Below, one piece after another: positions 1,844 through 42,894 of a DNA stretch of 44,760 bases. The notes below the pieces were generated by a model. It made no database searches. It had not been told where the DNA came from and saw only the letters and a program-made list of their open reading frames with translations. The translations under genes were made by a program, and so were the position numbers. How positions within the stretch are numbered: position 1 is the first letter of the stretch; every line of letters begins with the position of its first letter. This stretch comes from a virus: positions 1 to 44,760 of IMG/VR virus record IMGVR_UViG_3300047469_000263, one strand, 5' to 3'.

Positions 1844-2006
1844 CCAATTCATAGAGTAAAGCGACATGATTCGAGGCTAGGAACTTCTCTGCCATCGCAG
1901 GCAGCAACTGGCGTAGCTAGTCATTCACCGCTCACCTGAAAACATGGGGTAGTATGGCTGGACGGCACAACGATTTGACTGCAGCATTGCATTAAGGCCT
2001 TTGATC

Positions 2007-5000
2007 ATGACGTCTTCCGTGAAGCGCTCCCCCAATGTCCCGCAGCGCAAGGAGCTGATACCTAGCACCTTGCCTTTTCCTGTGGTCGGCATCGGGGCTT
2101 CCGCTGGCGGCCTCCAGGCGGTTAAGTCATTTTTCGAGCACATGCCCAATGACAACGGCATGGCCTTTGTCATTATTTTTCACTTGTCGCCCGATTATCC
2201 CAGCCAAGTCGATCGGATCATTCAGGAAGTCACCAAAATGCCGGTGCGGCAGGTGACCGAGACTATCTCCATCGAAAAGAACACCGTGTATGTCATCTCG
2301 CCGGCGCACAACCTGATGATGAACGATGGTTATCTGTCGGTGGCGCCATCGGATCGGCCGCCCGGCATGCATGTGGCCATTGACCTGTTCTTCCGAGACC
2401 TGGCGGATGTGCACAAGGAACGTGCCTTCTGCCTGATACTGTCCGGCACTGGCTCTGACGGTGCGGTAGGGCTTTCACGGATCAAGGAACAAGGCGGCAT
2501 CACCTTGGTGCAGACTCCGGAAGATGCCGAATACGATGGCATGCCCCGGGCTGCCATCAATACGCAGATGGTCGATCTGGTATTGCCCGTGGTCGAGATG
2601 CCGCAAAAACTGCTGGAGCTCTGGCGTAATTCGAAGTCCATCACACTACCGACCGCCAACGATCCGGAAATCAAGACCACCCCTCCTGCTTCCGAACGTG
2701 ATGCCGCCTTGGCCGAGCAGCAACTGCAAGACATCTTGCTTCAGCTGCGCAATGGAACCGGTCACGATTTCAAACACTACAAGCGGGCCACCGTGCTGCG
2801 CCGCATCGAGCGTCGCCTGCAGGTGACCGCACAGCCGGATTTGGGCGCCTACTACGACTATCTGCAAGCCCACCCCGAAGAAACCAAGGCGTTGCTGGGG
2901 GACATGTTGATCGGCGTGACCAATTTCTTTCGCGACCGCGAAGCCTTCGAAGCATTGGAACGCAATGTCATTCCCGATCTGGTTAAATCGTTGCAGGACA
3001 CCCTGCCGCGCCGGGATGAAATCCGTGTCTGGTCAGCGGGCTGCTCTACTGGCGAAGAGTCCTACAGCTTGGCCATCCTGTTGACCGAGCAGATGACCTT
3101 GGAGTCCAGCCCGGCCAAGCTGCAGGTGTTTGCCACCGACATCGATGATCGCGCGATTGCCTTTGGTCGAAGTGGCGTCTATCCCGAGGCAATCATTACC
3201 GACGTTCCGCCGCCGCGCATGCGCCAATATTTCACCCTGGAAAACCATCATTACCGCGTGCGCAAGGAAATTCGCGAGAAAGTGCTGTTCGCCAAGCACA
3301 GCCTGTTGCTCGACCCGCCTTTCTCGCAACTCGACTTGATCGTCTGTCGTAACCTACTGATCTACCTCGACCGCGAGGTGCAGCGTGACATCATGCAGAT
3401 GTTCCACTTTGCCTTGCGCCCGGGCGGTTACCTATTCCTCGGTTCCTCGGAATCCGCCGATGGCTGCCTGGATCTGTTTACGCCGGTGGACAAACGCAAC
3501 CGCATCTTCCGCGCCAAGAGCGTGTCCAGCAGTCCCCGACGCGCACCCACCCTGCCGCGCGGTGGTTATGCACGCACCACTGTCGCCACCCGCCCCCTGC
3601 AACCAGCAGTGGCACGCAAGGTGTCGTTTGCCGACACCCACCTGCGGGCGCTGGACAAGGCCGCGCCGCCGAGTATCATCGTCGACGCCAGCGCCAACAT
3701 ACTGCACATGAGCGAAGGCGCCGGGCGTTTTCTGCGCTACGTGGCCGGAGAGATATCACGCAACCTGTTGACCCTGGCCCACCCGGATCTGCGTCTGGAC
3801 ATTCGCACCACGTTGTACCAAGTACAGCAGAGCGGACTGCCGGTCACCTCGCGCAAAATCCGCATCGAGCGTGAGCAGCGCAGTTACCTGGTCGACCTGA
3901 ACGTGCATCCTTACAAGGATGACGAGACTGACAGCGAATACACCCTGGTGATCTTCGAGGAACGCGAGGTCGATCCTCAAGAGTTGCTCGATATCAGCGC
4001 CAGCCAGACCGAAAACCAGATGTTGGCCAACCTGGAGCATGAACTGCAGCGCACCAAGCTACAGTTGCAGGAGACCGTCGAACAATCGGAAGTCTCCAGC
4101 GAAGAGCTCAAGGCCTCCAATGAAGAAATGCACGCTATCAACGAAGAACTGCGCTCAGCCACCGAAGAACTGGAAACCAGCAAGGAAGAATTGCAATCGA
4201 TCAATGAAGAGCTGCTGACCGTTAATGCCGAACTCAAGGCTAAGGTCGAAGAAACCGATAAGGTTAACGACTACCTGACCAACCTGATTGCCTCCACCGA
4301 CATTGCCACCGTGTTTGTCGATCGCAACATGCGCATCCGCTGGTTTACCCCACGGGCCACCGAGATCTTCAGCATGTTGCCGGTCGACACCGGGCGCTCG
4401 CTAATGGACATCACCCACCGCCTGGACTACCCGGAGATAGCCGAGGATGCGGCAACAGTCTTCGAGTCGCTGAACATGATCGAACGCGAAGTCTGCAGCA
4501 GCGACCAGCGCTGGTACATCGCCCGTCTATTGCCTTACCGCTCCAGCGAGGATCACATCGACGGCACGGTGCTGACCTTCATCGATATCTCCAAGCGCCG
4601 TGCCGCCGAGGAGGAGTTGCGCATCAGTGAAGAGCGCATGCGCCTGGTGGCCGAGAGCACCCATGACTTCGCCATTATTATCCTCGATGATAACGGCGTA
4701 ATCACCGACTGGAACACCGGGGCCAAGTTGATTTTTGGCTACAGCAAAGAGGAAGTGCTCGGCGCCTATTACGACCTGATCTTCACACCGGAAGAACGCA
4801 GCTCAGGCGCACCGGAAATTGAGCTGTGCGCCGCGCGCGAACACGGTCGCGGTGAAGACGAACGCTGGCACCTACGTAAGGACGGCAGTCGTTTCTACTG
4901 TAGCGGTGAAGTCATCCGCCTGGTAGGCGATAGCCTCAAAGGCTATGTGAAGATCGCTCGCGACCTCACCGGTCACAAGCGCCTGCAGGACGAACAAACT

Positions 5001-6155
5001 CAACGGCTGGCCGAAACCCAAACCAGCAGCCATCTCAAAGACGAGTTTTTCGCGGTGATGTCCCATGAGCTCAAGCACCCGCTCAACCTCATCCAACTCA
5101 ATGCCGAACTGCTGCGTCGCCTGCCGATGACCAAAAGCGTCAGCCCGGCCATGAAGGCGGTCAATACCATTTGCGACGCGGTGTCGAGTCAGGCGCGGAT
5201 CATCGACGACCTGTTGGATGTTGCCCGGGTGCGCACTGGCAAACTCAAGCTGAAAAAACAGGCAGTGGATCTGGGACGGATTCTGCAGGACATCCACACG
5301 GTGGTGGTCAACGATCAACACCCTTGCGAAATCATCCTGCAGGTACCCCAGCCGCCGGAGCCACCGCTGGTGGTCGATGCTGATAGCACGCGCCTGGAAC
5401 AGATCATCTGGAACCTGGTGAACAATGCCCTGAAGTTCACCCCCAAGGATGGTCGCATTAAGCTGATCGCCCGGCGCGTCGAGGATGTAGCGCAATTGGA
5501 CGTCATCGACAGCGGCATTGGCCTTGAAGAGGATAACCTGCACAAGGTGTTCGACCTGTTCACCCAGGCGGAAAACCAGCATGCCACCCATCAGCGCGAG
5601 GGCCTGGGCATTGGCCTGTCACTGGTGCGGCAACTGGTGGAAGCCCACGGTGGCTCGGTGGATGTGCGCTCCGAAGGCATTGGCTGCGGTTGCACGTTCT
5701 CCATCCGCCTGCCGCTGTGCCACCCCCATCAAACTGCGCCTGATCAAGCCCAGAACGCGGCTGAATCCGGGCGCCTGCTTGGCCAGAAAGTGCTCTTGGT
5801 GGATGACTCTCGAGACGTGATGGAAGTGCTGCAAATGCTGCTGGAGATGGAGGACGCGCACGTGGAAGCTTTCAGCGATCCGCTACTGGCCCTGAAAGCT
5901 GCGAAAGAAGGCAACTACGACGTGATCATTTCCGACATTGGTATGCCAGTCATGGATGGCCACAAGCTGATTCAGGCCATTCGCCAGATCACCCATCACA
6001 AATACACTCCGGCCATTGCCCTTACGGGTTACGCCACCAGCATTGACCAGCAAAAAACCAGACAGTCGGGGTTCAACTACCACGTGAGCAAGCCGGTCGC
6101 CCATGATGACTTCATCGACATTATTGACGAGGCTTGCAAAACTCGGCCGTATTAA
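2007..6155 (+). CDS. CheB-CheR-PAS-histidine kinase-receiver hybrid protein
   Basis: A 1382-residue multidomain signalling protein. Order: CheB methylesterase (about 25-200, with catalytic signatures GASAGG, HLSPDY and GTGSDG); CheR methyltransferase (about 225-490, SAM loop AGCSTGEESYS); a long Glu-rich coiled coil (about 668-755); two PAS domains (about 760-990); HisKA with the phospho-acceptor His in SHELKHPL (about 1019); HATPase_c (N box NLVNNALKFTP, GLGIGLS); and a receiver with phospho-acceptor Asp in ISDIGMP (about 1308). All catalytic residues I looked for are present. There is no transmembrane segment, so it should be cytoplasmic. I chose the ATG at 2007 because AAGG sits about 9 bases upstream; the in-frame TTG at 2001 is too close. 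It is an unusually large cargo gene between the tail/lysis block and attL, on the opposite strand to the late genes, and should be transcribed independently of them. Confidence 0.93.
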   Translation: MTSSVKRSPNVPQRKELIPSTLPFPVVGIGASAGGLQAVKSFFEHMPNDNGMAFVIIFHLSPDYPSQVDRIIQEVTKMPVRQVTETISIEKNTVYVISPAHNLMMNDGYLSVAPSDRPPGMHVAIDLFFRDLADVHKERAFCLILSGTGSDGAVGLSRIKEQGGITLVQTPEDAEYDGMPRAAINTQMVDLVLPVVEMPQKLLELWRNSKSITLPTANDPEIKTTPPASERDAALAEQQLQDILLQLRNGTGHDFKHYKRATVLRRIERRLQVTAQPDLGAYYDYLQAHPEETKALLGDMLIGVTNFFRDREAFEALERNVIPDLVKSLQDTLPRRDEIRVWSAGCSTGEESYSLAILLTEQMTLESSPAKLQVFATDIDDRAIAFGRSGVYPEAIITDVPPPRMRQYFTLENHHYRVRKEIREKVLFAKHSLLLDPPFSQLDLIVCRNLLIYLDREVQRDIMQMFHFALRPGGYLFLGSSESADGCLDLFTPVDKRNRIFRAKSVSSSPRRAPTLPRGGYARTTVATRPLQPAVARKVSFADTHLRALDKAAPPSIIVDASANILHMSEGAGRFLRYVAGEISRNLLTLAHPDLRLDIRTTLYQVQQSGLPVTSRKIRIEREQRSYLVDLNVHPYKDDETDSEYTLVIFEEREVDPQELLDISASQTENQMLANLEHELQRTKLQLQETVEQSEVSSEELKASNEEMHAINEELRSATEELETSKEELQSINEELLTVNAELKAKVEETDKVNDYLTNLIASTDIATVFVDRNMRIRWFTPRATEIFSMLPVDTGRSLMDITHRLDYPEIAEDAATVFESLNMIEREVCSSDQRWYIARLLPYRSSEDHIDGTVLTFIDISKRRAAEEELRISEERMRLVAESTHDFAIIILDDNGVITDWNTGAKLIFGYSKEEVLGAYYDLIFTPEERSSGAPEIELCAAREHGRGEDERWHLRKDGSRFYCSGEVIRLVGDSLKGYVKIARDLTGHKRLQDEQTQRLAETQTSSHLKDEFFAVMSHELKHPLNLIQLNAELLRRLPMTKSVSPAMKAVNTICDAVSSQARIIDDLLDVARVRTGKLKLKKQAVDLGRILQDIHTVVVNDQHPCEIILQVPQPPEPPLVVDADSTRLEQIIWNLVNNALKFTPKDGRIKLIARRVEDVAQLDVIDSGIGLEEDNLHKVFDLFTQAENQHATHQREGLGIGLSLVRQLVEAHGGSVDVRSEGIGCGCTFSIRLPLCHPHQTAPDQAQNAAESGRLLGQKVLLVDDSRDVMEVLQMLLEMEDAHVEAFSDPLLALKAAKEGNYDVIISDIGMPVMDGHKLIQAIRQITHHKYTPAIALTGYATSIDQQKTRQSGFNYHVSKPVAHDDFIDIIDEACKTRPY

Positions 6156-7461: not shown

Positions 7462-8505
7462 TTACAGCTGCTCGACCCTGAGCGGCTTGTCTTCTTTCTG
7501 CTTCTTGCCGGCGGCCTTCGCCTTGCCCTTCTTGCCGCCGTTGCATTCCACCGTGGTGTTCCACCCGGCCGCCGTGAACACCTGCTCCACACTGTCCACC
7601 AGGTACTCGCCGTCAAGCCCGGGCTTGAAGCCCTGAGCGCTGATCGAGCGCTCAGCGAACAGATCGGTACGGCCGGGCATTTCCAGGCGCACCGCTGCCG
7701 TGCTGCGATTGAACGCCGCCAACCGGGCCTTGGCCGCCTGCTGGGCGGCGGTCTTGTTGGGGTAGATATGGCGGTCGGTGTGGACCGGGGGCAAGCCGGA
7801 TGGGGAATCAGCGTTGGCCACCTCGACCACCTGCAGCTCGCCGGTTTGCTTGTCCTGATGCTGGGTTTTCACCGCCTTTTGCGTGCTGCGATCGCTCAGC
7901 CGGAACTCATAGCGGGTGACGTCCGTTTTGCTGAGGGTGACCACCCCAAGCGTTTTGCCGGTCACGCTCTGCCCTGCCTGCCGAGGCATGACCAGCAACT
8001 TGCCCTCGGCCACCTTCGCGGTGCTGTCGTACTGCCTGGCCAGGCGCGTGACAAAGTTAAAATCCGACTCGTTGCGCTGATCGATCCGCTCGACCTTGGT
8101 GGTGACCGGGCACACCGCCTCCCAGCCATTGCGCTTGGCGATATCAGTGACGATGTCAGACAGCGGCACGTTCTCCCAGCTGCCGCTGCGAATGGTCTTG
8201 CCGCTTCCGCGCATGTCGCTGGCCTTGCCGCGTATCACCAAGGTGTCAGGCGGCCCGCTCAATTGCACCTCATCGACCGTATAGGCCCCCATGCGCGTGA
8301 GCGCTTGCCCTTCATAGCCTAGCAAGACCTCGACCCGCCCCCCGCGCGCGGGCAGTGCAACGGCTTGGTCGCGGTCGTCAATGCGCAATTCGAATTCGTC
8401 CGACTCCATGCCGGGCTTGTCCGATATCCGCAACATCAAAAGGCGGTCATTGATCAGCGCGGTAATGTCCGTGCCATCCGCGATGATTCGATAAGTAGGT
8501 TTCAT
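7462..8505 (-). CDS. P2 gpD-like tail protein (late control / baseplate hub)
   Basis: A 347-residue protein of the phage late control D family, the P2 gpD / T4 gp27-like hub that joins tail tube and spike. The N-terminal half begins with a typical strand (PTYRIIADGTDIT) and the middle carries a LARQYDSTAKVAEGKLLVMP-type segment characteristic of the family. A Lys/Gly-rich tail follows. ATG 8505 is chosen because GGAGCAAGG precedes it. Despite the name, a direct role in transcription control is not implied. It is the last structural gene before lysis, as in P2. Confidence 0.88.
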   Translation of the reverse strand: MKPTYRIIADGTDITALINDRLLMLRISDKPGMESDEFELRIDDRDQAVALPARGGRVEVLLGYEGQALTRMGAYTVDEVQLSGPPDTLVIRGKASDMRGSGKTIRSGSWENVPLSDIVTDIAKRNGWEAVCPVTTKVERIDQRNESDFNFVTRLARQYDSTAKVAEGKLLVMPRQAGQSVTGKTLGVVTLSKTDVTRYEFRLSDRSTQKAVKTQHQDKQTGELQVVEVANADSPSGLPPVHTDRHIYPNKTAAQQAAKARLAAFNRSTAAVRLEMPGRTDLFAERSISAQGFKPGLDGEYLVDSVEQVFTAAGWNTTVECNGGKKGKAKAAGKKQKEDKPLRVEQL

Positions 8506-8527
8506 GCCTTGCTCCAGAAACGAGAAA

Positions 8528-8544
8528 CCCCGCACATGGCGGGG
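8528..8544 (-). terminator. Hairpin between tail genes X and D
   Basis: CCCCGC-5 nt-GCGGGG, followed on the minus strand by a T-rich stretch (TTTCTCGTTT) and then CTGGAG ahead of gene D. It is a weak intrinsic terminator or an RNA processing hairpin. Confidence 0.5.
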
Positions 8545-14239: not shown

Positions 14240-15412
14240 TTATGCGACTTGATCGAGGACTTCGGTCAGCCATTGATTGGTGATTTCGATGCGGAAATTC
14301 GGGTTCTCAGCCGGCGGAACGTCGGTGAAGCGAATGTTCCAAAACACCTTGCCCTGCTCCAGCTGGCTGGCCGTGTTGAGCGCGGGGTCGGCATAGACCT
14401 CAAAGTTGATGATTGCGCCCTGCGATTTCAGGTCGCGCATAAAGGCCTGCAGGCCTTCGGTGACGTCGCGGATGTAGGTCGAGGTAATCGCGCGGTCGAC
14501 CGCCCACTTGTGCCCGTACAAGATGGCGTCCATGACCATATCCATGGTGCGCACGCGGGTCACAAACGACCACTTAGCATCACTCGACAGGGTGCGGTTG
14601 CCCCACAGGCGGAACCCGTCATCGCGAATGATCGTCGCGATATTGGCGTTGTTCAGCAGGTTGGCCCGGCAGCTCTCGTCGCCGTCCAGGTACTCGACCG
14701 CGCGCGTGGTACCGGTGATGCCGACAAACTCCTTGTTCGACGGCGAGGCCCAAAAGCCGTATTCGCGGTCGGTGTAGGCGAACAGACCCGCCGCCCAGGC
14801 TGACGCCGGCGCATCGACGGTCTTGCTGGTCACGGTGTCCCACACCTGCACGCCGGGATCGACCATAAACAAGCGCTTGGAGCCGAAAAGTTTGGCGTAG
14901 GTGGTGGCCGCTTCGTCGGTCGTGCCGGGCCCGTCAATGATGCCGATCGCGCGCAGCTTGCCGGCCAGCGCATCGATCGCGGTGGCCACCGCCTGTGTAG
15001 CGCTGTGCTTGGGCGCGATGATCAGCCGCGGCTGGGCGTTGAAACGGCTCTTGCCATCGAGCAGCGCCTGCAGGCCGGTACGTTTGCCACCGACCTGAAC
15101 GCCGCCAACGATCGAGGACGTCTGCGCGGCCGCGTCGACGGCCTTGGCCACGCCCGATGCAACAATCACCGCTTTGGAACGGGTGTAGATCGCCAGGCAA
15201 GACTTGGTCATCGCCGAGTCAGGACCGAAGGCGGCAATCGCCTCGCGCTCGTTGGTGATCAGCACCAAGTCGCCGGCCTTGGCCGTGGCGTTCACGCCCT
15301 CGGTGAAGGTGTCGACCAAGCCAATGATCGAAGAGGAAGGCAGCGCGATGTTGCGCGCGCCGCTGTCGACGTTCGTTACGGTAACGCCGTGAAAAAAACC
15401 AGATGAGGCCAT
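14240..15412 (-). CDS. Tail sheath protein (P2 gpFI-like)
   Basis: A 390-residue contractile sheath protein. Typical features are an N-terminal handshake segment (GVTVTNVDSGARNIALPSSS), an internal ITGTTRAVEYLDGD region, and the C-terminal FWNIRFTDVPPAENPNFRIE stretch ending in LTEVLDQVA. Its presence makes the virion a myophage. ATG 15412 is preceded by CTGGAG; the longer open frame upstream lacks sheath-like sequence. It shares a late operon with the tube gene. Confidence 0.93.
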   Translation of the reverse strand: MASSGFFHGVTVTNVDSGARNIALPSSSIIGLVDTFTEGVNATAKAGDLVLITNEREAIAAFGPDSAMTKSCLAIYTRSKAVIVASGVAKAVDAAAQTSSIVGGVQVGGKRTGLQALLDGKSRFNAQPRLIIAPKHSATQAVATAIDALAGKLRAIGIIDGPGTTDEAATTYAKLFGSKRLFMVDPGVQVWDTVTSKTVDAPASAWAAGLFAYTDREYGFWASPSNKEFVGITGTTRAVEYLDGDESCRANLLNNANIATIIRDDGFRLWGNRTLSSDAKWSFVTRVRTMDMVMDAILYGHKWAVDRAITSTYIRDVTEGLQAFMRDLKSQGAIINFEVYADPALNTASQLEQGKVFWNIRFTDVPPAENPNFRIEITNQWLTEVLDQVA

Positions 15413-15433
15413 TTGAAACTCCAGAAAGCACAA

Positions 15434-15485
15434 GGCCGCGACAGACGCGGCCAAATGAAAACGAAAACGCCCCGACTAGTGGGGC
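15434..15485 (-). terminator. Two hairpins upstream of the sheath gene
   Basis: GCCCC-7 nt-GGGGC (15485-15469), followed on the minus strand by GTTTTCGTTTTC, and GGCCGCG-5 nt-CGCGGCC (15452-15434), followed by TTGTGCTTTCTGGAG, stand in series between the small membrane protein gene and the sheath gene. They are likely attenuating or processing elements in the late operon. Confidence 0.55.
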
Positions 15486-29204: not shown

Positions 29205-29549
29205 CTACTCTCTGCCCGTCTTTTGCCCTGGCGATGGTTCGCTAACTCCTGCCCTCTTTGCCAAGAACTGCGTGTACAGACCACCAGCAACATCGGCACC
29301 GATGACCGCGATGACAATGCCTAAACCTGCAGCCAGATAGAGATTGCTCCACAGAGCCATAGCGAGCAGTAGCGTGGCCATACCCAATAGGCCAGACGCA
29401 AGAAAGCGCAGTGCTACGCGCTGCAGGATCTGCTGAAGCCCAAGGTCGGAGCCTGACGCTCTCAGCATCTCCCCGGACAAACCGGCCATGCTTAACAACA
29501 CCAACAGCCAAAGGGGCACGTCAGCAAGAGCCTGATGCTCAGTGTTCAT
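29205..29549 (-). CDS. Holin (LydA-like)
   Basis: A 114-residue membrane protein with three probable transmembrane segments (about residues 12-30, 46-64 and 70-90) and the C-terminal VAGGLYTQFLAKRAG motif of LydA-type phage holins. It should form the membrane lesions that release the endolysin. GAGG lies about 7 bases before ATG 29549. It is the first late gene after two strong terminators and is separated by about 22 kb from endolysin and spanins, so the lysis genes are split across both ends of the late operon. Confidence 0.83.
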   Translation of the reverse strand: MNTEHQALADVPLWLLVLLSMAGLSGEMLRASGSDLGLQQILQRVALRFLASGLLGMATLLLAMALWSNLYLAAGLGIVIAVIGADVAGGLYTQFLAKRAGVSEPSPGQKTGRE

Positions 29550-29633
29550 CTGTTGTCCTCGAATAGGTCCGGCCTCCATGTCACTGTCATCCGCTTGAAG
29601 CAAAGAGCCAGGCATGGGGCCGAAAAACGAAAA

Positions 29634-29695
29634 AGCCCTGCTCGACGGCAGGGCTTAAAAAATGGGTACAAAAAACCCGACTCGATGGCCGGGTT
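29634..29695 (-). terminator. Two tandem intrinsic terminators upstream of the holin
   Basis: On the minus strand AACCCG-loop-CGGGTT (29695-29674) is followed by TTTTTT, and AGCCCTGC-6 nt-GCAGGGCT (29655-29634) is followed by TTTTTC. Both face the late operon. Two terminators between the Q gene region and the first late gene match the lambda pR'-tR' logic: late transcription should need Q to read through. Confidence 0.75.
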
Positions 29696-29887
29696 CTTGA
29701 AAGCGTCTAGCTGCGTTCACAGCAATACACGCTGCTATGGAAACAGACTTATTCCGCGCGGAAAAGTGTTTTTTGCGGCGGCTAAAACCGGTAAATTCGT
29801 AGCTGCCAATGTAATTGAGAGGCGAATTGTACGCGCTCTTCTCCAAAAATTAGCGAACCCATACACTGAAAGCATGGACGTGATTGC

Positions 29888-31702
29888 ATGACAAGCCATA
29901 CAGACAAAAAAGGCAACGACTCGCCTCTCAACGAGCCTTCACACTTGAGAGAATATTTAGAGTATTACAAAACCCTTTCCAGTCCAGGCTACGGCATACT
30001 AGTAACTGGTGATTGGGGGTCAGGCAAAACATTTCAAGTAAACGAAATATTAAATCAAGATGAAATACACTACATAAGTTTATTCGGAGCACAAACCACA
30101 GAAGAAATATACTCCGCCGTGTATGCAAAAATGCATCCACTCAAGTCGTTAACAAAAGGAATCGCGAACTCGGCAAATGGTGCCGGAATTGGACCAGTTA
30201 ATGTTGGAGGATTGCTATCCGGAGTCGCAAATGCAATTATCCGAGAGCAGGTCAACAATGACAGAATTTTGGTTTTCGACGATTTAGAGCGAAGCAAAAT
30301 CGACCCCAACGATTTGCTAGGCGTATTTAACAAATACATAGAACATCATAACTGTAGAGTCGTCGTTCTCGCACACGACAAAGAAATCACTGAAGTCTTC
30401 AAAGGCATAAAAGAAAAAGTTTTCGGCCAGACAATTTCTATAGTGCCCCAAACATCGAAGGCCTTTGACAGCTTTACCAGCAAAATAAAAGACCCGACCA
30501 CCCTTAGAACAATAACCAAACTAAAGCCTGCAATACTAGACATATTCACCCAATCAGAAACCCACTCGCTTCGTATACTAAAACACTCTCTAGAGGACCT
30601 TATTAGGCTGTTCGGAGCTCTCACACCCGAGCACAAATCAAACGGAACTGCCATACTCGAATTGACAAGCCTATTCTTAGCATTGAGCTTAGAAGTTAGG
30701 GCCGGACGTATAGATGAATTATGCATCAAAGATAGAAGCGGCTCGATCATCCGGCATCAAATGAAAGTCGCTCGAAAGGAAAAAACTTCCGAGATACCAA
30801 AAATTTACAAAGCTTCAACCCGATATAAAAACATCGACATCAGCAATAAACTTCTGACCGATGAAGTATTAACAAGCATGCTATTTAAGGGGAGTTACTC
30901 AGATACAAGCATACAGGCGTCTTTAAACAAAAGCCTGTACTTCACCAGCCCTGAAGATCTTCCTGCGTGGCTAGTATTCATGAAATTCGATGAACTTAGC
31001 GATAAGGAATCACATGAGGCTGCGGAAAAACTGAAGATACAGTTCACTAACCGGGAGTTAATCGAACCTGGTGAAATGCTTCAGCTATTCTCACTTCGAT
31101 TTCTGCTTTCAGAAATGGGACTAATCTCACGTAATTTTTCCGAGACAGAAGAGGACTGCAAACAGTATATGGAGGATCTACTCAGCCAACATAAAATTAA
31201 ACCTTTTGCTGGATACCGAGACAACTTCACCACTGGATACGGAGGTTACGCGTTCTGGGTTGAAGAAAGCTATAACAAACACTTTTCTAGACTCAACAAC
31301 TATTTGAAAGATACGCAGATTAGAGCAGAAAAACAGCGCCACCCCGAAATAGCAAAAACGCTTCTTACATTGATCTCTACTGATGGCGATGAGTTCGCAG
31401 GAAAAATCAGCCACACAAATGGCGGAAAAAACGATTTTGCAACCACTGATGTCTTGGCCAGCATACAGCCAAGCGATTTCGTTCAGGAATGGATGGGGTC
31501 TCCTGCGAAAAACTGGAGACATATAAGCAGAGGATTAGAGCAAAGGTATTCTGCCGGACAACTTCAAACCACACTTAAAAGCGAAAAATCCTGGATGAAA
31601 GAAGTCATAATCCTGATTGATCGCGAAATAATTAAATCTAAAGGCATCAGAAAGAAACGGATCGAGCGTATTTTGCCATTGAGCTTAAGAAACATGGTCT
31701 AA
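29888..31702 (+). CDS. KAP-like P-loop NTPase, AT-rich cargo gene
   Basis: A 604-residue protein with Walker A GDWGSGKT (41-48), Walker B RILVFDDLER (about 126-135) and a following NCRVVVLAHDKE strand with a sensor-like position, the layout of KAP/STAND-related P-loop NTPases. The C-terminal 400 residues are helical with no domain I recognise, and there is no clear transmembrane segment. The gene is much more AT-rich than its neighbours and runs against the late operon, between Q and the holin, a common moron slot. KAP ATPases include the phage-exclusion protein PifA, so a defence role is plausible but only inferred. Confidence 0.82.
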   Translation: MTSHTDKKGNDSPLNEPSHLREYLEYYKTLSSPGYGILVTGDWGSGKTFQVNEILNQDEIHYISLFGAQTTEEIYSAVYAKMHPLKSLTKGIANSANGAGIGPVNVGGLLSGVANAIIREQVNNDRILVFDDLERSKIDPNDLLGVFNKYIEHHNCRVVVLAHDKEITEVFKGIKEKVFGQTISIVPQTSKAFDSFTSKIKDPTTLRTITKLKPAILDIFTQSETHSLRILKHSLEDLIRLFGALTPEHKSNGTAILELTSLFLALSLEVRAGRIDELCIKDRSGSIIRHQMKVARKEKTSEIPKIYKASTRYKNIDISNKLLTDEVLTSMLFKGSYSDTSIQASLNKSLYFTSPEDLPAWLVFMKFDELSDKESHEAAEKLKIQFTNRELIEPGEMLQLFSLRFLLSEMGLISRNFSETEEDCKQYMEDLLSQHKIKPFAGYRDNFTTGYGGYAFWVEESYNKHFSRLNNYLKDTQIRAEKQRHPEIAKTLLTLISTDGDEFAGKISHTNGGKNDFATTDVLASIQPSDFVQEWMGSPAKNWRHISRGLEQRYSAGQLQTTLKSEKSWMKEVIILIDREIIKSKGIRKKRIERILPLSLRNMV

Positions 31703-31765: not shown

Positions 31766-32458
31766 TTATGCTGCGTTGCGAATTACACTTACAGCGCAAT
31801 CAACCCATGCTGCACCTGCTCTGACTAATTCACGTGCTTTACCTTCGCTCATCCCGTAGTATTTTCCGACACGAACCATCGGCCATTTGGCTCCAAAATA
31901 CAGCCATACGACGTCCCCCATCTGCTGATCCCGAAGTGCGAGCTTGGCTACAGCATTGTCGATAGCAATAGCCCATTCATCAGTAATGCAGTAGTTCTTG
32001 CTTGCTACCGGCTGCACCACTGCTTGGCGCATCAGCGCTAAAGTCGGTGATGTGTAGCCTGGAACGCCCACTCCATCCATCCGCCACCATCCCCACTGCT
32101 CCAAAAGATACTCAGTGTCTCCCAGCGGTCGGCCAGCCGGCTTACGAATCATCATGCGCTCAATCCCCTGTGTAATTTGTGCCGCCCGCCCCCAGGCGGT
32201 TCGATTGCTTGTACTGTCGCTGGACTCCGGGCACGGTCCTTTCAGCGCCGCGATTTCGCGTTGAATCTCCTGCAATCTAAAGCTCAACTGAGTGACCAGT
32301 TCGTCTGAAGAAAGCACCAACTTGCTACCCCCAACAACCCAACCTGAGCCGTTGCAATCAGTGCAAACCAGCTCATAAAAAACCCCCTTGACTACTGTTT
32401 TCCCCTTGCAGATCGAGCATGGCTCCAGCTCGATCCGTTCCCGCTCAAAGCCAGGCAT
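31766..32458 (-). CDS. Putative late antiterminator Q
   Basis: A 230-residue protein with an N-terminal Cys cluster (CSICKGK, then CTDCNGSG), a DnaJ-like zinc-binding knuckle, and a C-terminal winged-helix-like part (VWLYFGAKWPMVRVGKYYGMS) close to the lambda Q / DUF1133 group. It lies last in the early operon and just before the late operon leader with two terminators, the classic Q position. AAGGAG lies 9 bases before ATG 32458. It overlaps the recombinase gene end by 14 bp. Confidence 0.72.
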   Translation of the reverse strand: MPGFERERIELEPCSICKGKTVVKGVFYELVCTDCNGSGWVVGGSKLVLSSDELVTQLSFRLQEIQREIAALKGPCPESSDSTSNRTAWGRAAQITQGIERMMIRKPAGRPLGDTEYLLEQWGWWRMDGVGVPGYTSPTLALMRQAVVQPVASKNYCITDEWAIAIDNAVAKLALRDQQMGDVVWLYFGAKWPMVRVGKYYGMSEGKARELVRAGAAWVDCAVSVIRNAA

Positions 32459-33773
32459 TGGTCTTTTCTCCTTGGTTTAAAACCTCGCCCTTAACAAATT
32501 GCGGAATTGACTCGCAGGCCACTCTATTCAAAGCATCTACGAGGTTTTGCGAATCTTCATATCTAGCGCCTGTCTGCTCATGGATCGCCTTGAAGCCACG
32601 CTCATCTAACCAGTTGTGCCACTTCACCAGAGCCAGCCGACGCTGCTCCTTGGCCTGGGTGTTGATGTACGTCGAAGCGATCTTGCCCAGCGAATGGTTC
32701 AACAGCATCTCGCCGATGTGGCCATCGACGCCGAGGTCAGTCCAGGCGGTACGCGCTACCTTGCGCAGGTCGTGGCTGGTCCAGGCGCCCTGCCCCAATC
32801 GACTGAACACGGCACTGGCCTGGTTATCGCTGAGCGGCTTACCTCGGCGAGAAGGGAACAGGAATGGTCCCTCGTACCCTTGGGCGGCCTGCCGATCCCG
32901 GTACCGGTGCAGTAACGCGCAGACCTGGTCGGTCAGTGGCACCCTCAGCTCGGTCTTGCTCTTGGTGTGTTCGGCCGGCAGGTACCACTCACGCTCAGCC
33001 ATCGCGATGGCGGCCCAACGGGACTGACGGGTTTCGCCAATGCGGGTGCCGTGGCACAGCATCATCAGGGCCAGCATGGCGTCACCGGGTGCAGTCTCGA
33101 ATCGCTCCGCCAGCTGTTCCACCAACTCGGGCACCTGCACATCGCGCAGGCGGGCTGGCTTGGGCAGGATGCGCGCCGTCGTGAAGTTGATGAACTTGAG
33201 CTCCGCCATCGGGTTAGCTGGGATCAGATCCAGCTTACGGGCCTGACGAAAGGCCACCGCGAGCAGACGGTACAGCTGCTGGACGTACGATAGCGACAAC
33301 TCGGCCTGAGCCGGCCACATCAACAGCTTGTCCAGGGTCTGGGCATTGACGTCGCGAATCAGCAGATCTCCCAGCCGCGGTTTGAGCTGGCAACTGATGG
33401 CTGATTTACCCGCAGAACGGCGCTTAGCGGACAGCGCGCGCGAGCGAGCCATGCGATCGCCATACCAGTCCAGCAGCTCGCCGACGGTCACCCAACCCGA
33501 AACGCTGGCAGCACCATCGGCCGCCACTCGCAAACGCACTGCCGGCAACGCTGCGACCACCTGTTTGGTACTCAGGTCCGGAAATCCGCCGATGCGGTGC
33601 CACTGGCGCTTGTTCAGCAGGTACCAAGAACCGCGGGTGCGATTTTTCGAATAACGGAAATGCAACGCAGGGTGACTGGCATCACGCAGATCGCGCACAT
33701 GCTCTAGCCGGGCATTGCGCTGAATCTCGGCGTCTGACAGTTTCACGGTCAGGGTCTTGATCAGGGTGCTCAA
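32445..33773 (-). CDS. Second tyrosine recombinase, in the replication region
   Basis: A 442-residue tyrosine recombinase with the whole catalytic set: Arg244 (CHGTRIGET), Lys271 (HTKSK), His334 and Arg337 (SHDLRK), His360 (LNHSLG) and Tyr369. The N-terminal 90 residues resemble the arm-binding / DUF4102-like domain of P4-type integrases. It lies within the early operon between DnaB and Q, 9 kb from attR and 32 kb from attL, so it is unlikely to be the integrase of this prophage. It overlaps the small gene before it by 4 bp. A role in dimer resolution or in a DNA inversion is possible but unproven. Confidence 0.85.
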   Translation of the reverse strand: MSTLIKTLTVKLSDAEIQRNARLEHVRDLRDASHPALHFRYSKNRTRGSWYLLNKRQWHRIGGFPDLSTKQVVAALPAVRLRVAADGAASVSGWVTVGELLDWYGDRMARSRALSAKRRSAGKSAISCQLKPRLGDLLIRDVNAQTLDKLLMWPAQAELSLSYVQQLYRLLAVAFRQARKLDLIPANPMAELKFINFTTARILPKPARLRDVQVPELVEQLAERFETAPGDAMLALMMLCHGTRIGETRQSRWAAIAMAEREWYLPAEHTKSKTELRVPLTDQVCALLHRYRDRQAAQGYEGPFLFPSRRGKPLSDNQASAVFSRLGQGAWTSHDLRKVARTAWTDLGVDGHIGEMLLNHSLGKIASTYINTQAKEQRRLALVKWHNWLDERGFKAIHEQTGARYEDSQNLVDALNRVACESIPQFVKGEVLNQGEKTNAWL

Positions 33774-37456: not shown

Positions 37457-37517
37457 ATAAGCAGGCTTATATCGTATTAAGAAGGAGGCTTATTTGCAAG
37501 AGAATAAGGGAACTTAT
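37457..37517. promoter_or_regulatory. OR-like region: three operators between cro and cI
   Basis: ATAAGCAGGCTTAT (37457-37470) is a perfect palindrome. AGAAGGAGGCTTAT (37480-37493) and ATAAGGGAACTTAT (37504-37517) match 12 of 14 positions of the consensus ATAAGCNNGCTTAT. Centres are 23 and 24 bp apart, as in lambda OR. A cro promoter fits on the minus strand: TTGCAA (37499-37494), 17 bp, TACGAT (37476-37471). Toward cI, TATAAA (37515-37520) sits 9 bp before ATG 37530, overlapping the third operator. Confidence 0.75.
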
Positions 37518-37529
37518 AAATTTACGGGC

Positions 37530-38186
37530 ATGACGACATTAGCCGAACGCATGAAACTCGCACGCAAACATGCGAACCTGACCCAGAAAGCACTGGCCGA
37601 AAAGGCTGGTGTTGAGCAGCCCGTAATCTCTCAGCTGGAGACTGGCAAGAATCAGCAGAGCGCCCATCTCTCGAAATTTGCGCATCTCTGCGGCGTCAGC
37701 GCGATTTGGCTGTCTGACGGGATTGGATCTATGACCGATAAAACATCGGGTGACTCCAATGTGCGGATGGCACAGCAGCCCGCAACGCTTTACCGATATC
37801 CCGTTATCAGTTGGGTCTCTGCTGGATCGTGGGAGGAGGCGGTTCAGCCCTACCCCGACGGATTTTCAGACCGCTACGAGCTTTCTGATTATGACTCCAA
37901 AGGCCCGGCGTTTTGGCTTGAGGTAAAAGGTGACTCGATGACGGCACCAACCGGCACCAGCGTTCCCGAAGGAATGCTCATTCTGGTCGACACCGAAGCC
38001 GACGTTAAGCCTGGAAAGCTGGTAATCGCCAAGCTACCTGCCAGCAATGAAGCCACCTTCAAGAAGCTTGTAGACGATGGCGGAGTGAGATATTTGAAGC
38101 CGCTAAATCCGGCTTACAAGATGGTTGAGCTAGATGAGAACTGCAAAATCATAGGTGTTGCGGTGCGTATGACTGGAAAGCTGTAA
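37530..38186 (+). CDS. Phage repressor, S24/LexA-like (CI)
   Basis: A 218-residue repressor. An N-terminal helix-turn-helix (KALAEKAGVEQPVISQLE) is followed by an S24 peptidase domain: cleavage site Ala98-Gly99 in WVSAGSW, nucleophile Ser136 in KGDSM and general base Lys178/179 in TFKKLV. It should repress early promoters and cleave itself when RecA is active. The frame is open to a TTG at 37494 with AAGGAGG in front, but that would put an operator inside the gene. The ATG at 37530, only 9 bp past a -10 box, allows a leaderless mRNA as for lambda cI, so I prefer it. Confidence 0.9.
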   Translation: MTTLAERMKLARKHANLTQKALAEKAGVEQPVISQLETGKNQQSAHLSKFAHLCGVSAIWLSDGIGSMTDKTSGDSNVRMAQQPATLYRYPVISWVSAGSWEEAVQPYPDGFSDRYELSDYDSKGPAFWLEVKGDSMTAPTGTSVPEGMLILVDTEADVKPGKLVIAKLPASNEATFKKLVDDGGVRYLKPLNPAYKMVELDENCKIIGVAVRMTGKL

Positions 38187-38962: not shown

Positions 38963-39300
38963 ATGCACCAATGCAGCACTAACCACTTCACCTTGGTAGC
39001 GTTGAAAGCCTGAAGGCTGAACCGCACTTCCAGACAAGCTGCGGACAATAGCGGCGTCGATGGCACCGTGCATCGGCCAGCCCTGAGCTGGTAGCCCGCC
39101 CAAACGCATATGGACCACCGCCGATGAAACAAACCCAGGCCGTCGCCAGTAGCGGGTCTGGGAGGCTGTCACGTAGGGAGGTCTTCGTGACACCAACAAA
39201 AGGCCGGTTTCGACCGGGCTTTTTTCCGCCTGCCTTTATCCGTCAGCACTCTCCCCTGCGCCTAACGGCAACCAGCGGGCGGCCGACTACTGACGAATAA
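38963..39300 (+). pseudogene. Frame-disrupted leader gene downstream of the OL-like promoter
   Basis: AGGAGG precedes an ATG at 38963 (HQCSTNHFTLVALKA), but the frame is closed by TGA and TAG. Protein-like sequence continues in the same frame (SGVDGTVHRPALSW) and then shifts (ARPNAYGPPPMKQTQAVASS ... LRLTATSGRPTTDE) to TAA 39300. I recall similar phrases in Pseudomonas phage proteins, so I read this as a decayed gene. It might instead be an untranslated leader. The rest of 38685-38962 shows no gene I can support; the frame there lacks a ribosome site. Confidence 0.4.
39202..39226 (+). terminator. Intrinsic terminator in the early right leader
   Basis: CCGGT-TTCG-ACCGG then GCTTTTTT, lying between the OL-like promoter and the next gene (ATG 39326). 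Transcription of the int operon would need read-through here, as in antitermination-controlled early leaders. Confidence 0.7.
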
Positions 39301-39325
39301 TCGCAACCCACACCGAGGATCAACA

Positions 39326-39640
39326 ATGCATCCATCATTTCAAGAGCGCGTCGATGAACTCGGTGTGCTGCTGCAAAAAACTCGAGCGGCACGGGCCGGT
39401 TTCTTCGACCGCACTGATCGGCGGATGCCACCGAAACCGGTTCGCTTTCAGGTAACCGGTGAGAGCGCCGGAATGTTCCAGGTTGTCGACCTGACCACCG
39501 GAAAGATCCGCGCCTTCCGCGAGGGCTACAAGGCCGCTCATGATCTTGCCATCCAGTTCGAAGAGAAAGTTAACCGCATGGCCGGAGTGCAGAGTTATCG
39601 GAGTACCAATTTCCAACTCGCGGGACTCGCTCATCGATGA
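39326..39640 (+). CDS. Unknown early protein
   Basis: A 104-residue basic protein (FQERVDELGVLLQKTRAARAG, then PPKPVRFQVTGE). GAGG lies about 9 bases before ATG 39326. It is the first intact gene of the plus-strand operon. The last 15 or so residues may be shifted: another frame carries a protein-like stretch (DSLIDDLNQHKFESVS) to a stop at about 39707, so a small frameshift or a second short gene is possible. No family recognised. Confidence 0.55.
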   Translation: MHPSFQERVDELGVLLQKTRAARAGFFDRTDRRMPPKPVRFQVTGESAGMFQVVDLTTGKIRAFREGYKAAHDLAIQFEEKVNRMAGVQSYRSTNFQLAGLAHR

Positions 39641-39717
39641 CCTGAACCAGCATAAATTCGAATCAGTCTCGAAGAACACCATCAAACACAACGCCCACAA
39701 GTTGTGAAGCCACACTT

Positions 39718-40395
39718 TTAGTCCAACTTCACCGGGGTGAATTTAATTCTAGCTAACGAACTGCCACGCTCTGAAACTGAAACATGCATTTCATATCGAT
39801 CAGATGCAAGTACATCCCCGCCATACCTATAATCTATCCGAATATTATACTTTTCATCAAGGACAGGGAGGGAAGTCTTAAAAAGTGTTTTCTGATTAGT
39901 CTCGAGACTAGAAGTACTCCCCACAAACCTGTCATCGCAATACAAGCTTATATCTTCCGCATTATTACCTTGATTACTTATATAAAAATTTACATTTAAG
40001 CTCCCATCAGCACTTGGGACATTAGCAATCAACCTTAAGCTTGGAAGCAGTGCGGCCTCCCTTTGCTCACGCTCGTAATTTGCTTTTAATAATTCAGCCT
40101 CCAACTGCCTTCCTGCGATACCAGCCATCTCTTTTTGCTGGTTTACTGAATTTCTCAACTCATCAGCCTGAAGCCTAAGAGCCTCATTGTTCTGCCGAAG
40201 CTCGTGCCCTTGCTGAAAAAAACCAAGGATCAGCCATAATATTGCGACGGGTCCAAACACACCCGCCAGAAAGTCGCCCATTTCGTTCAGTGGCATCCTT
40301 TCAAGTGCATCAATTTTGGAACCCGCAAGCTTGAAAATTAATGTTGCATAAGCTCCACTACCTATAATCCCCACCCATGCCAACCATCTATTCAT
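39718..40395 (-). CDS. Membrane protein, Abi-like candidate 1
   Basis: A 225-residue protein with two N-terminal transmembrane segments (about 5-25 and 45-65), then a coiled coil (HELRQNNEALRLQADELRNS) and a beta-rich C-terminal domain (NVNFYISNQGNNAED). The second segment carries GDFLAGVFGP, shared with the next minus-strand membrane protein (GSFFGGVFGP). This resembles the start of the putative phage abortive infection family putAbiC as I remember it. It is AT-rich and reverse to the int operon, so it looks acquired. Function inferred. Confidence 0.7.
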   Translation of the reverse strand: MNRWLAWVGIIGSGAYATLIFKLAGSKIDALERMPLNEMGDFLAGVFGPVAILWLILGFFQQGHELRQNNEALRLQADELRNSVNQQKEMAGIAGRQLEAELLKANYEREQREAALLPSLRLIANVPSADGSLNVNFYISNQGNNAEDISLYCDDRFVGSTSSLETNQKTLFKTSLPVLDEKYNIRIDYRYGGDVLASDRYEMHVSVSERGSSLARIKFTPVKLD

Positions 40396-40505
40396 TCTTC
40401 AACTCCACCTACTGAAGATGCGGATATACAGCACGCGAAACTAAATTGCCACCACCCCGCGCTGTAAATCCGACCTCGGAGGGTGACAACTGACTGGAAA
40501 TCACC

Positions 40506-40711
40506 ATGAGACCTGAAGAAATCAATGCTATCCAGCTCTGCCTGCTTTGGCAGCGGGCAGTGGCGCACACCCAGACATAAGCCAAGATCAGCTACATGGT
40601 TTCGTTCAAGAAGCAAAGTCCCGCAAGAAGCGATACAACCGCGACCCGATGTGCATTGGTAGTAACCAAACTGCCCCAACTCCACCTATTGCGCCAACGG
40701 ACATTGAGTAA
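40506..40711 (+). pseudogene. Frameshifted plus-strand gene relic
   Basis: MRPEEINAIQ begins at ATG 40506 but stops at 40580. Coding-like sequence then goes on in another frame (HPDISQDQLHGFVQEAKS, KKRYNRDPMCIGSNQTAP) to TAA 40711. This fits a gene of the plus-strand early operon that decayed, with the two minus-strand membrane genes on either side. It explains the otherwise empty 320-bp gap. Confidence 0.4.
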
Positions 40712-40715
40712 TTAT

Positions 40716-41354
40716 TCAAACATTGAAAAGATTTGGCTCGATGCTTTTCAGTTCTTTGTTCATCTTTAGACTTAGCTGCTCAACGCTCTCAAACTGGCCA
40801 AGAGATATTTCAACAGAAAGTTGTATGAGCATACCAACCTGCTCTTCTGTCGACTGAATGTTCCTATCAATTTCTATGAGCTTCTCGGTTCTTGGAACTC
40901 CCGACTTTCTGCCCAGCTCGAAAAGTCTAGCACCCTCGGCGTTGTACCTATCCAGCATTCGCTCAAACATTGTTATCTGTTGATCCAGCAACTGTAGTTG
41001 ATGTGACTTGTAATCCGATAGCTTTGAAAAATTAACCTGATCCACTTGCGCTTGATGAGTACGCATTTGTTGAGAGCTCAACTCTTCAAACTCGTTCTTT
41101 TGGATAACGAGGAGTTGCTTCTGCAGCTCTATAGTTCTCAATATTGCAAAAAGTGTTACTAAAGAAATGGCAGGGCCGAACACGCCACCAAAAAAGGATC
41201 CGAAAGCCGACCAACTTTCCGATGCACTTGACAGGCCAGCATTGAACACCTTCAAGTAGGTTCCTACAGTTATTACCAGCAAGCCAAGTATGAAAATCAG
41301 TCCATATTTCAACCCCCTATCCAAGGGGCTTTTTACTAAATCAATTTCTTTCAT
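40716..41354 (-). CDS. Membrane protein, Abi-like candidate 2
   Basis: A 212-residue protein with two N-terminal transmembrane segments (about 16-36 and 48-70) and then a long cytoplasmic coiled coil (ELQKQLLVIQKNEFEELSSQ and further). The GSFFGGVFGP motif at the second segment and the following helix with Gln/Glu repeats match the neighbouring protein at 39718-40395, so the two are probably distant paralogues. AGGAGGCGGG precedes ATG 41354. It is AT-rich and in reverse orientation within the int operon. A superinfection exclusion or abortive infection role is inferred. Confidence 0.7.
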   Translation of the reverse strand: MKEIDLVKSPLDRGLKYGLIFILGLLVITVGTYLKVFNAGLSSASESWSAFGSFFGGVFGPAISLVTLFAILRTIELQKQLLVIQKNEFEELSSQQMRTHQAQVDQVNFSKLSDYKSHQLQLLDQQITMFERMLDRYNAEGARLFELGRKSGVPRTEKLIEIDRNIQSTEEQVGMLIQLSVEISLGQFESVEQLSLKMNKELKSIEPNLFNV

Positions 41355-41398
41355 CCCGCCTCCTGATAATTTTTTCCTTCCGAGCGAAAGGATATCCC

Positions 41399-41518
41399 AT
41401 GTCCGCCCAACAGATCCTAGATCCGCAGGAAATCTTTGACGACTACAGCAACAAACGCGTCTCACGCATGAAACGGTCTGAGGATCACTTGGACTGCACA
41501 AAGATGTCGGCTGGGTAA
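41399..41518 (+). CDS. Short unknown protein before excisionase
   Basis: A 39-residue frame with AAAGGA 6 bases before ATG 41399 (SAQQILDPQEIFDDYSNKR). It is divergent from the membrane protein gene by 44 bp and followed by the DUF4224 gene. No family recognised, but good ribosome site and operon position support it as real. Confidence 0.5.
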   Translation: MSAQQILDPQEIFDDYSNKRVSRMKRSEDHLDCTKMSAG

Positions 41519-41600
41519 GTGTCGTAGCCCAACACCACCTCTCTCGAAAAGCGCTAGCCCCTCCCACCTTCTGCCGTCACGCCCGGCATGGAGCACAATC

Positions 41601-41844: not shown

Positions 41845-42894
41845 ATGCGCCCCCGCAATACTGAGACACGCAATTTACCGCCACGCATGTACCAATGGAC
41901 GCGGAAACGAAAGAGCGGAAAGGAGTGGATTGCCTATTACTATCTGGACCTTACCGGTAAGGCGATCCCATTGGGCAAAGATCTGGACCAGGCCAGAATC
42001 AAATGGGCGGAACTCGAAGCCAAGGAGAAACCGCTCGACCTACGCACCATGAAGGGCATCTTTGACCGATACATCCGAGACATTGTCCCAAAGAAAGCGG
42101 CGCGTACGCAGAAGGACAACCTGGCAGAGATCAAACAACTGCGCCCCATGTTCGACAGCGCCCCTATCGACTCAATCACACCAGCAACGATCGCGGGTTA
42201 CCGTGATGCACGAACGGCAAAGGTACGGGCAAACCGTGAGATTGCCATCCTCTCCCACGTGTTCAACATGGCCCGGGAGTGGGGTCTGACAACCAAAGAA
42301 AATCCTTGCCAGGGCGTACGCAAGAACAAGGAAACGCCAAGAGACTATTACGCAAATGATGCTATTTGGGATGCAGTTTACAAGAAGGCCGCTCAAGAGC
42401 TGAAAGACGCGATGGACCTGGCCTACCTAACCGGTCAGCGGCCGGCAGATGTCTTGGTTATGCGGAAGGATGACGTTGAGGGGGACTATCTGATGGTGCA
42501 GCAGAATAAAACCCACAAGAAGCTTCGAATCCAGATCAATACCGGCGGGTTGGCAAATACCCTGGGGCAACTGATCACAAAGATAACGGAGCGCAACGCT
42601 CACCACCTCTCGAGCTATTTGATCGTGAACCGGCACGGCAAGCGGATGACTGCGACGATGCTGAGAAAGCGTTGGGACCTGGCCAGAGAGAAAGCGAGGC
42701 TGCTAGCGATTGAGATGGGGGACACGCTACTGGCTGGCAGAATCGGCGAGTTTCAGTTTCGGGACATCAGGCCAAAAGCCGCATCGGAGATCATTGACGT
42801 CGGTGAGGCAAGTCTGCTGCTCGGGCACACCAAAGGCGACATTACCGAGCGGGTTTACCGCCGAGTCGGCGCCATTGCCAGGCCATCAAAATAA
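41845..42894 (+). CDS. int: Phage integrase, tyrosine recombinase
   Basis: A 349-residue lambda-type integrase. An N-terminal arm-binding domain (about 1-65) and core-binding SAM-like domain (about 68-160) precede the catalytic domain, with Arg199 (TGQRPADV), Lys222 (NKTHKK), Arg309 (FRDIRP), His328 (LGHTKG) and Tyr338. The usual His of the H-x-x-R motif is replaced by Arg306. The gene is 130 bp from attR and flanked by arm sites, so it is the integrase for tRNA-Ser. Start ATG 41845, coupled to the DUF4224 gene. Confidence 0.94.
   Translation: MRPRNTETRNLPPRMYQWTRKRKSGKEWIAYYYLDLTGKAIPLGKDLDQARIKWAELEAKEKPLDLRTMKGIFDRYIRDIVPKKAARTQKDNLAEIKQLRPMFDSAPIDSITPATIAGYRDARTAKVRANREIAILSHVFNMAREWGLTTKENPCQGVRKNKETPRDYYANDAIWDAVYKKAAQELKDAMDLAYLTGQRPADVLVMRKDDVEGDYLMVQQNKTHKKLRIQINTGGLANTLGQLITKITERNAHHLSSYLIVNRHGKRMTATMLRKRWDLAREKARLLAIEMGDTLLAGRIGEFQFRDIRPKAASEIIDVGEASLLLGHTKGDITERVYRRVGAIARPSK

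Follow-up and report, generated by a model that had tools for sequence, protein, structure and literature searches.

What does a large, AT-rich NTPase gene do when it lies between the late antiterminator gene Q and the holin gene of a phage, on the strand opposite to both? An earlier note on this DNA had proposed a superinfection-defence moron, with PifA as a KAP-type precedent. The window, meaning the whole stretch of DNA analysed, is a virus contig of 44,760 bases. The gene belongs to a candidate defence family, and its site is a recurrent cargo hotspot, a point absent from the earlier note.

The prophage

A 1384-residue CheB/CheR/PAS/histidine kinase/receiver protein is encoded at the left end of the window (2001-6155), which is probably a flank of the host chromosome. 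A lambda-type integrase gene is situated at 41845-42894. Because of the host-type left flank and this integrase, the record looks like an integrated prophage. The Pseudomonas host that had been assumed holds for the close relatives, and the window's own prophage is of Pseudomonas type as judged by those relatives. The probable host flank also contains a 168-residue open reading frame (851-1354, + strand) matching the PADLOC candidate PDC-S07 (1.6e-13). A second AT-rich stretch (39300-41600, GC about 44-48%) lies between the repressor gene (37494-38186) and the integrase gene. Its reading frames at 39718-40395 and 40716-41567 are without Pfam matches, and the stretch is possibly a second cargo site.

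The NTPase gene

The NTPase gene (29888..31702, + strand) is an intact reading frame with an ATG start, encoding 604 amino acids. It was identified as a cargo gene for a PDC-S49/KAP-type P-loop NTPase from the reading frame, from PADLOC, Pfam and PHROGs profile matches and from dN/dS. Its GC content is 41.7%, against a window mean of 58.7% (sd 6.0), and the lowest-GC 1815-bp window in the whole record falls on it, in agreement with the foreign composition noticed earlier. Q (31766..32458) and the holin gene (29205..29615 as listed, with a conserved start at about 29567) were recognised by Pfam matches to Phage_antitermQ (1.5e-7) and Phage_holin_3_5 (8.6e-24). Both are on the - strand, which confirms the reversed placement of the NTPase gene between them; the gene converges on Q.

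Upon pairwise comparison with the copy in locus L093, dN was found to be 0.16 and dS 1.17, giving a dN/dS of about 0.13. The ratio was taken from this pair, the synonymous sites in other pairs being saturated or nearly so. The gene is under purifying selection, and the reading frames are intact in 34 homologues. Since 11 distinct close copies occupy one site and dN/dS is 0.13, the insertion is not due to chance. Transposition was considered as its source; no direct repeats were found at the flanks of the gene, and it is not accompanied by a gene for a transposase or a homing endonuclease.

A promoter search upstream of the gene gave no clear match, and the Rfam search gave no match above threshold. 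A 16-nt inverted repeat (88%) at 29815-29830 / 29916-29931 brackets the start codon and could fold in the mRNA. A small reading frame at 29535-29891, whose stop codon overlaps the NTPase start (ATGA), was first taken for a translationally coupled partner. It is probably not a gene, because what is conserved in it is the opposite-strand late control element, which is present with any cargo.

The NTPase protein

The protein matches the PADLOC family PDC-S49 over nearly its full length (3.6e-144, residues 18-599 of 604) and phrog_4740, a PHROGs family of unknown function, over residues 18-596 (2.7e-85). The match to Pfam KAP_NTPase (PF07693) has an E-value of 4.5e-7 and scores 29.8 bits, against a gathering cut-off of 20, in an alignment confined to residues 25-56. 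All 34 homologues match both PDC-S49 and KAP_NTPase (best KAP_NTPase match 3.2e-16). By profile, the NTPase is thus a member of both families. It is a full-length, single-gene member of PDC-S49, and nothing was found that separates it from that family. PDC families are unvalidated candidates chosen by guilt-by-embedding (PMC12988326). A partial literature search found no phage tests of any PDC-S49 member.

Both Walker motifs are intact, as had been claimed. Walker A, GDWGSGKT, is formed by residues 41-48 (30008..30031, + strand) and includes Lys47; G41, W43, G44, G46, K47 and T48 are invariant in the 34 homologues. Walker B, ILVFDDLERS, is formed by residues 127-136 (30266..30295, + strand), with D131, D132, E134 and R135 likewise invariant. 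The protein shares with the KAP family Walker A, a Walker B of the DD[LI]xR type and a profile score above the gathering cut-off. It differs from that family in the short Pfam alignment and in having a weakly hydrophobic segment instead of a predicted transmembrane pair. Transmembrane inserts within the NTPase domain, between the Walker motifs, are common in KAP NTPases although not universal. The corresponding segment here, VNVGGLLSGVANAII, is glycine-rich and hydrophobic, spans residues ~96-121 (30173..30250, + strand) and contains the hydropathy maximum. The 19-residue Kyte-Doolittle profile peaks at 1.36 (residue 100), under the usual threshold of 1.6; no 19-residue window exceeds that threshold and no transmembrane pair is predicted, while the homologue in L001 reaches 1.67. 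This location, a frequent one for the membrane inserts of KAP proteins, hints at a possible action at the membrane.

Residues 213-604 (30524..31699, + strand) form a mainly helical C-terminal region in the AlphaFold model and are a putative sensor. The earlier note had found no known domain in these approximately 400 residues. This is correct with regard to Pfam, which gives no match; however, the PDC-S49 and phrog_4740 profiles cover the region. Because the PDC-S49 match spans the full length, this region falls within a family already on record; it is conserved in a broad family of proteobacterial proteins. No effector domain was recognised in the protein.

The AlphaFold model, for which nine sequences were used, is of poor overall quality (pLDDT 64). 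Its helices reach a pLDDT of about 75-93 at residues 371-440 and over most of 461-600, and the model is poor elsewhere. When the N-terminal domain of this model (residues ~14-292) was compared with the folds in the PDB, AAA+ proteins (TnsC, Orc/Cdc6) were at the top with Z of about 12-13, a middling value that is common for folds of the AAA+ type. A STAND protein and CED-4 ranked lower. No sequence relatives of the whole protein were found in the PDB.

The identity of homologues ranges from 73% (Pseudomonas sp. Irchel s3b2) down to about 22%. They occur in Pseudomonas, Halomonas, rhizobia, Sulfitobacter and Enterobacterales, and 7 of 298 Pseudomonas genomes carry one. Isolated phage records contain no full-length homologue; one 4.8-kb contig among them has a match to 37% of the query. 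A DNA search of complete E. coli genomes, made with the copy from Kosakonia, gave no relative.

The hotspot and its edges

The site was sampled independently of the NTPase by using the holin as query, which gave 80 loci; 68 of these have both Q and the holin in line. In the 68 loci the interval from Q to the holin ranges from 237 bp, which is an empty site, to 3136 bp (median 1.68 kb), and it is filled by cargo reading frames in either orientation. The cargo has a mean GC content of 45.0%, against 57.8% in the flanks, and is the lower of the two in 67 of 67 loci. It comprises about 50 unrelated AT-rich families; when reading frames of at least 118 residues were grouped by similarity, 58 clusters resulted, and some of these are probably not real genes. 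Some relatedness exists among the loci, and these counts are therefore not independent trials.

Both edges of the hotspot are sharp. On the Q side, conservation collapses directly after the Q stop codon (77 loci). On the holin side it begins abruptly at about 29777 and runs on to the holin. One locus (L034) has an empty allele, in which about 60 bp separate Q from the late control block. In the cultured phage PseuP_224, whose gene order is similar, a small reading frame is all that separates Q from the holin. The 11 distinct close PDC-S49 copies, including that of the window (relatives 54-73% identical), share the slot. The same Q protein adjoins the gene in all eight close viral homologues and in four Pseudomonas genome loci, and the late element is found on the other side in 10 of the 11 distinct copies. 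The NTPase gene is inserted at a hotspot that repeatedly takes up cargo, with Q on one side and the late control region on the other.

On its far side Q is adjoined by a second tyrosine recombinase gene (32445..33773, - strand; Pfam Phage_integrase, 1.4e-22), which was detected in 60 of the 68 loci. The window has accordingly two integrase-type genes, this one and the lambda-type integrase gene, and two integrases are likewise annotated in PseuP_224.

The holin-side edge is formed by a late-promoter-like element (29700..29777, - strand), presumably the target of Q, whose conservation in about 80 loci does not depend on the cargo they hold. It contains the 12-bp palindrome TTCCGCGCGGAA (29752..29763), exact in 44 of the 80 loci; most of the remaining loci with the element retain TTCCGCACGGAA. 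The palindrome is a possible Q-binding site. A TATAGC hexamer in the block reads toward the holin. Between the element and the holin there are two conserved tandem hairpins that resemble intrinsic terminators and the tR' arrangement (29633..29695, - strand); the second, at 29656-29633, was detected by a scan, and both appear in the fold of the leader. In phage lambda, Q-dependent late control has a promoter followed by terminators and then by the lysis genes. The block at 29633-29777 shows the same layout, and by this analogy it would be a Q-dependent late control region. As the late promoter would then start downstream of the cargo, the NTPase gene should be transcribable in the lysogen, outside the late operon.

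Cargo of the hotspot

The other cargo includes Dazbog (L063; DzbA 5.1e-139, DzbB 1.8e-27 by PADLOC), an OLD protein (L051; 3.3e-66), an OLD/Gabija-like ATPase (L089; 2.3e-38) and the candidates PDC-S31 (L014; 2.5e-31) and PDC-M25A (L071; 2.5e-84). Judged by these matches, PDC-S49 shares the slot with the validated defence genes DzbAB and OLD. NACHT, nSTAND1, ApeA-type HEPN, DUF4238 and other Pfam domains are also found in the cargo, as are MerR, NUDIX, astacin and MvaT-like domains; a few of the matches (MerR, NUDIX, astacin) look unrelated to defence. When 20 large cargo proteins were scanned singly against PADLOC, most gave no match at the chosen thresholds. A control scan of 32 other reading frames of the window gave weak PADLOC matches only (best 1.6e-13). 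Small cargo proteins at L052 878-1243 and L040 3406-3771 resemble xenogeneic silencers of the MvaT type; one cargo member matches Pfam MvaT_DBD (2.1e-18), and which one it is was judged by eye.

Small loci of high turnover that carry known defence systems between two conserved phage genes have been described in prophages and satellites by Rousset et al. 2022, beside cos in P2 and P4, between cI and the integrase gene in Vibrionaceae and near the integrase gene in Bacillus (PMC9122126). The present hotspot is of the same kind: it is a small high-turnover locus between two conserved genes, with known defence systems in its cargo. Its address is different: in prophages of Pseudomonas type, it extends from Q to the late control region. 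A partial literature search found no published description of a hotspot at this address; we make no claim to priority.

A second site of distant homologues

In prophages of the Enterobacterales type, a conserved integrase gene is followed, at a distance of between a few and some tens of bases, by a distant homologue (about 15 loci), and in nearly all of these loci a CI-type repressor gene directly precedes the integrase gene. A slot behind a repressor-integrase pair should be expressed in the lysogen. The prophage in one locus (L102) appears to be P2-like, because it holds homologues of the window tail genes 7462-8535 and 14240-15454. The family thus occupies two unrelated positions compatible with lysogeny, which argues for a role in the lysogen and not in virion production.

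In two of these prophages, integrase sequence is present on both sides of the NTPase gene, which may reflect the route of acquisition. Pieces at L094 8865-9091 that follow the gene are 85-91% identical to the upstream integrase gene, and the sequence at L098 9049-9873 is 65% identical to the integrase gene of L099.

Relation to known systems

PifA of plasmid F, which excludes T7, has in common with the window protein a KAP-type NTPase. As a precedent it is not a close one: at E<=1 no PADLOC PifA model was matched by the window protein, and only one of the 34 homologues has such a match (4e-4). Tmn is a single KAP-family NTPase with two transmembrane segments and is proven against phages (PMC11846954). 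The window protein is likewise a single KAP-family protein; however, no transmembrane pair like that of Tmn is predicted in it, and PDC-S49 is its sole PADLOC match. In the Campylobacter prophages CJIE1 and CJIE4, KAP P-loop morons are variable cargo for which superinfection immunity has been proposed (PMC3995785). Their likeness to the present gene is that of KAP genes in variable prophage cargo; host and insertion site differ.

Function of the NTPase

The superinfection-defence moron of the earlier note stands as the best reading, given the PDC-S49 match, the slot shared with DzbAB and OLD and the relatives in a slot that should be expressed in the lysogen; the function is what we infer from these. 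That the NTPase acts against phages can be proposed with good confidence. It is likely to be a single-gene anti-phage moron of the PDC-S49 family, carried as exchangeable cargo of the Q/late-control hotspot, whose product would be a sensor/effector, driven by ATP, that acts on superinfecting phages. Counted against a defence function are that most other cargo families match no defence model and a few look unrelated to defence, the presence of homologues in so few Pseudomonas genomes, the lack of a clear upstream promoter and of a recognised effector domain, the poor structural model and the weak PADLOC matches of other reading frames in the window.

The slot-mates can also be read differently. 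Astacin-like, MerR and NUDIX proteins without a defence annotation are housed in the same slot and KAP proteins are diverse, so that the gene could be a lysogenic-conversion moron with an effect on the physiology or the fitness of its host (stress, surface, metabolism) and no direct anti-phage role. This is unlikely in view of the full-length match to a candidate defence family, the validated systems sharing the slot and the second, lysogeny-compatible slot in unrelated prophages. The position of the gene between Q and the presumed late promoter, converging on Q, might alternatively suggest a regulator of its own phage, whose antisense transcription or product would damp Q and late expression and stabilise lysogeny. 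However, the site tolerates unrelated cargo in either orientation and can be empty, and the distant homologues are found at a quite different place, behind repressor and integrase genes, which makes such regulation very improbable.

The foreign composition and patchy distribution would also suit a functionless transient passenger or a selfish mobile gene. Frames intact in 34 homologues, invariant motifs, the low dN/dS and the absence of flanking direct repeats and of an accompanying transposase or homing endonuclease gene argue against it; there is very little probability left for this explanation.

Assuming that the NTPase is an anti-phage protein, its AAA+/KAP domain would be a switch that depends on ATP, and recognition of a product of the incoming phage would fall to the long, helical C-terminal region. 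Activation would lead to oligomerisation, and infection would then be halted. This sensor/switch arrangement is tentative, with even chances of being right. The halt would most likely be abortive infection, taking place at the membrane or close to it through the hydrophobic, glycine-rich segment that separates Walker A from Walker B, although such a membrane-linked mechanism is itself doubtful.

Implications

We regard the hotspot as a more valuable result than the NTPase gene. In a widespread group of Pseudomonas prophages, the interval from Q to the late promoter may be a site, so far undescribed, that is dedicated to the exchange of single-gene anti-phage systems, and new defence systems may be found in many of the dozens of unannotated AT-rich cargo families; the second tyrosine recombinase may take part in the exchange. 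This wider proposal is plausible, if somewhat short of probable. If the defence function is correct, PDC-S49 would be supported as a weapon of prophages against competing phages. The stretch between the stop codon of Q and the late control element would be a precise address at which many candidate anti-phage genes of Pseudomonas prophages could be listed for testing, and a temperate phage would be able to keep defence genes beside its late switch, outside the late operon.
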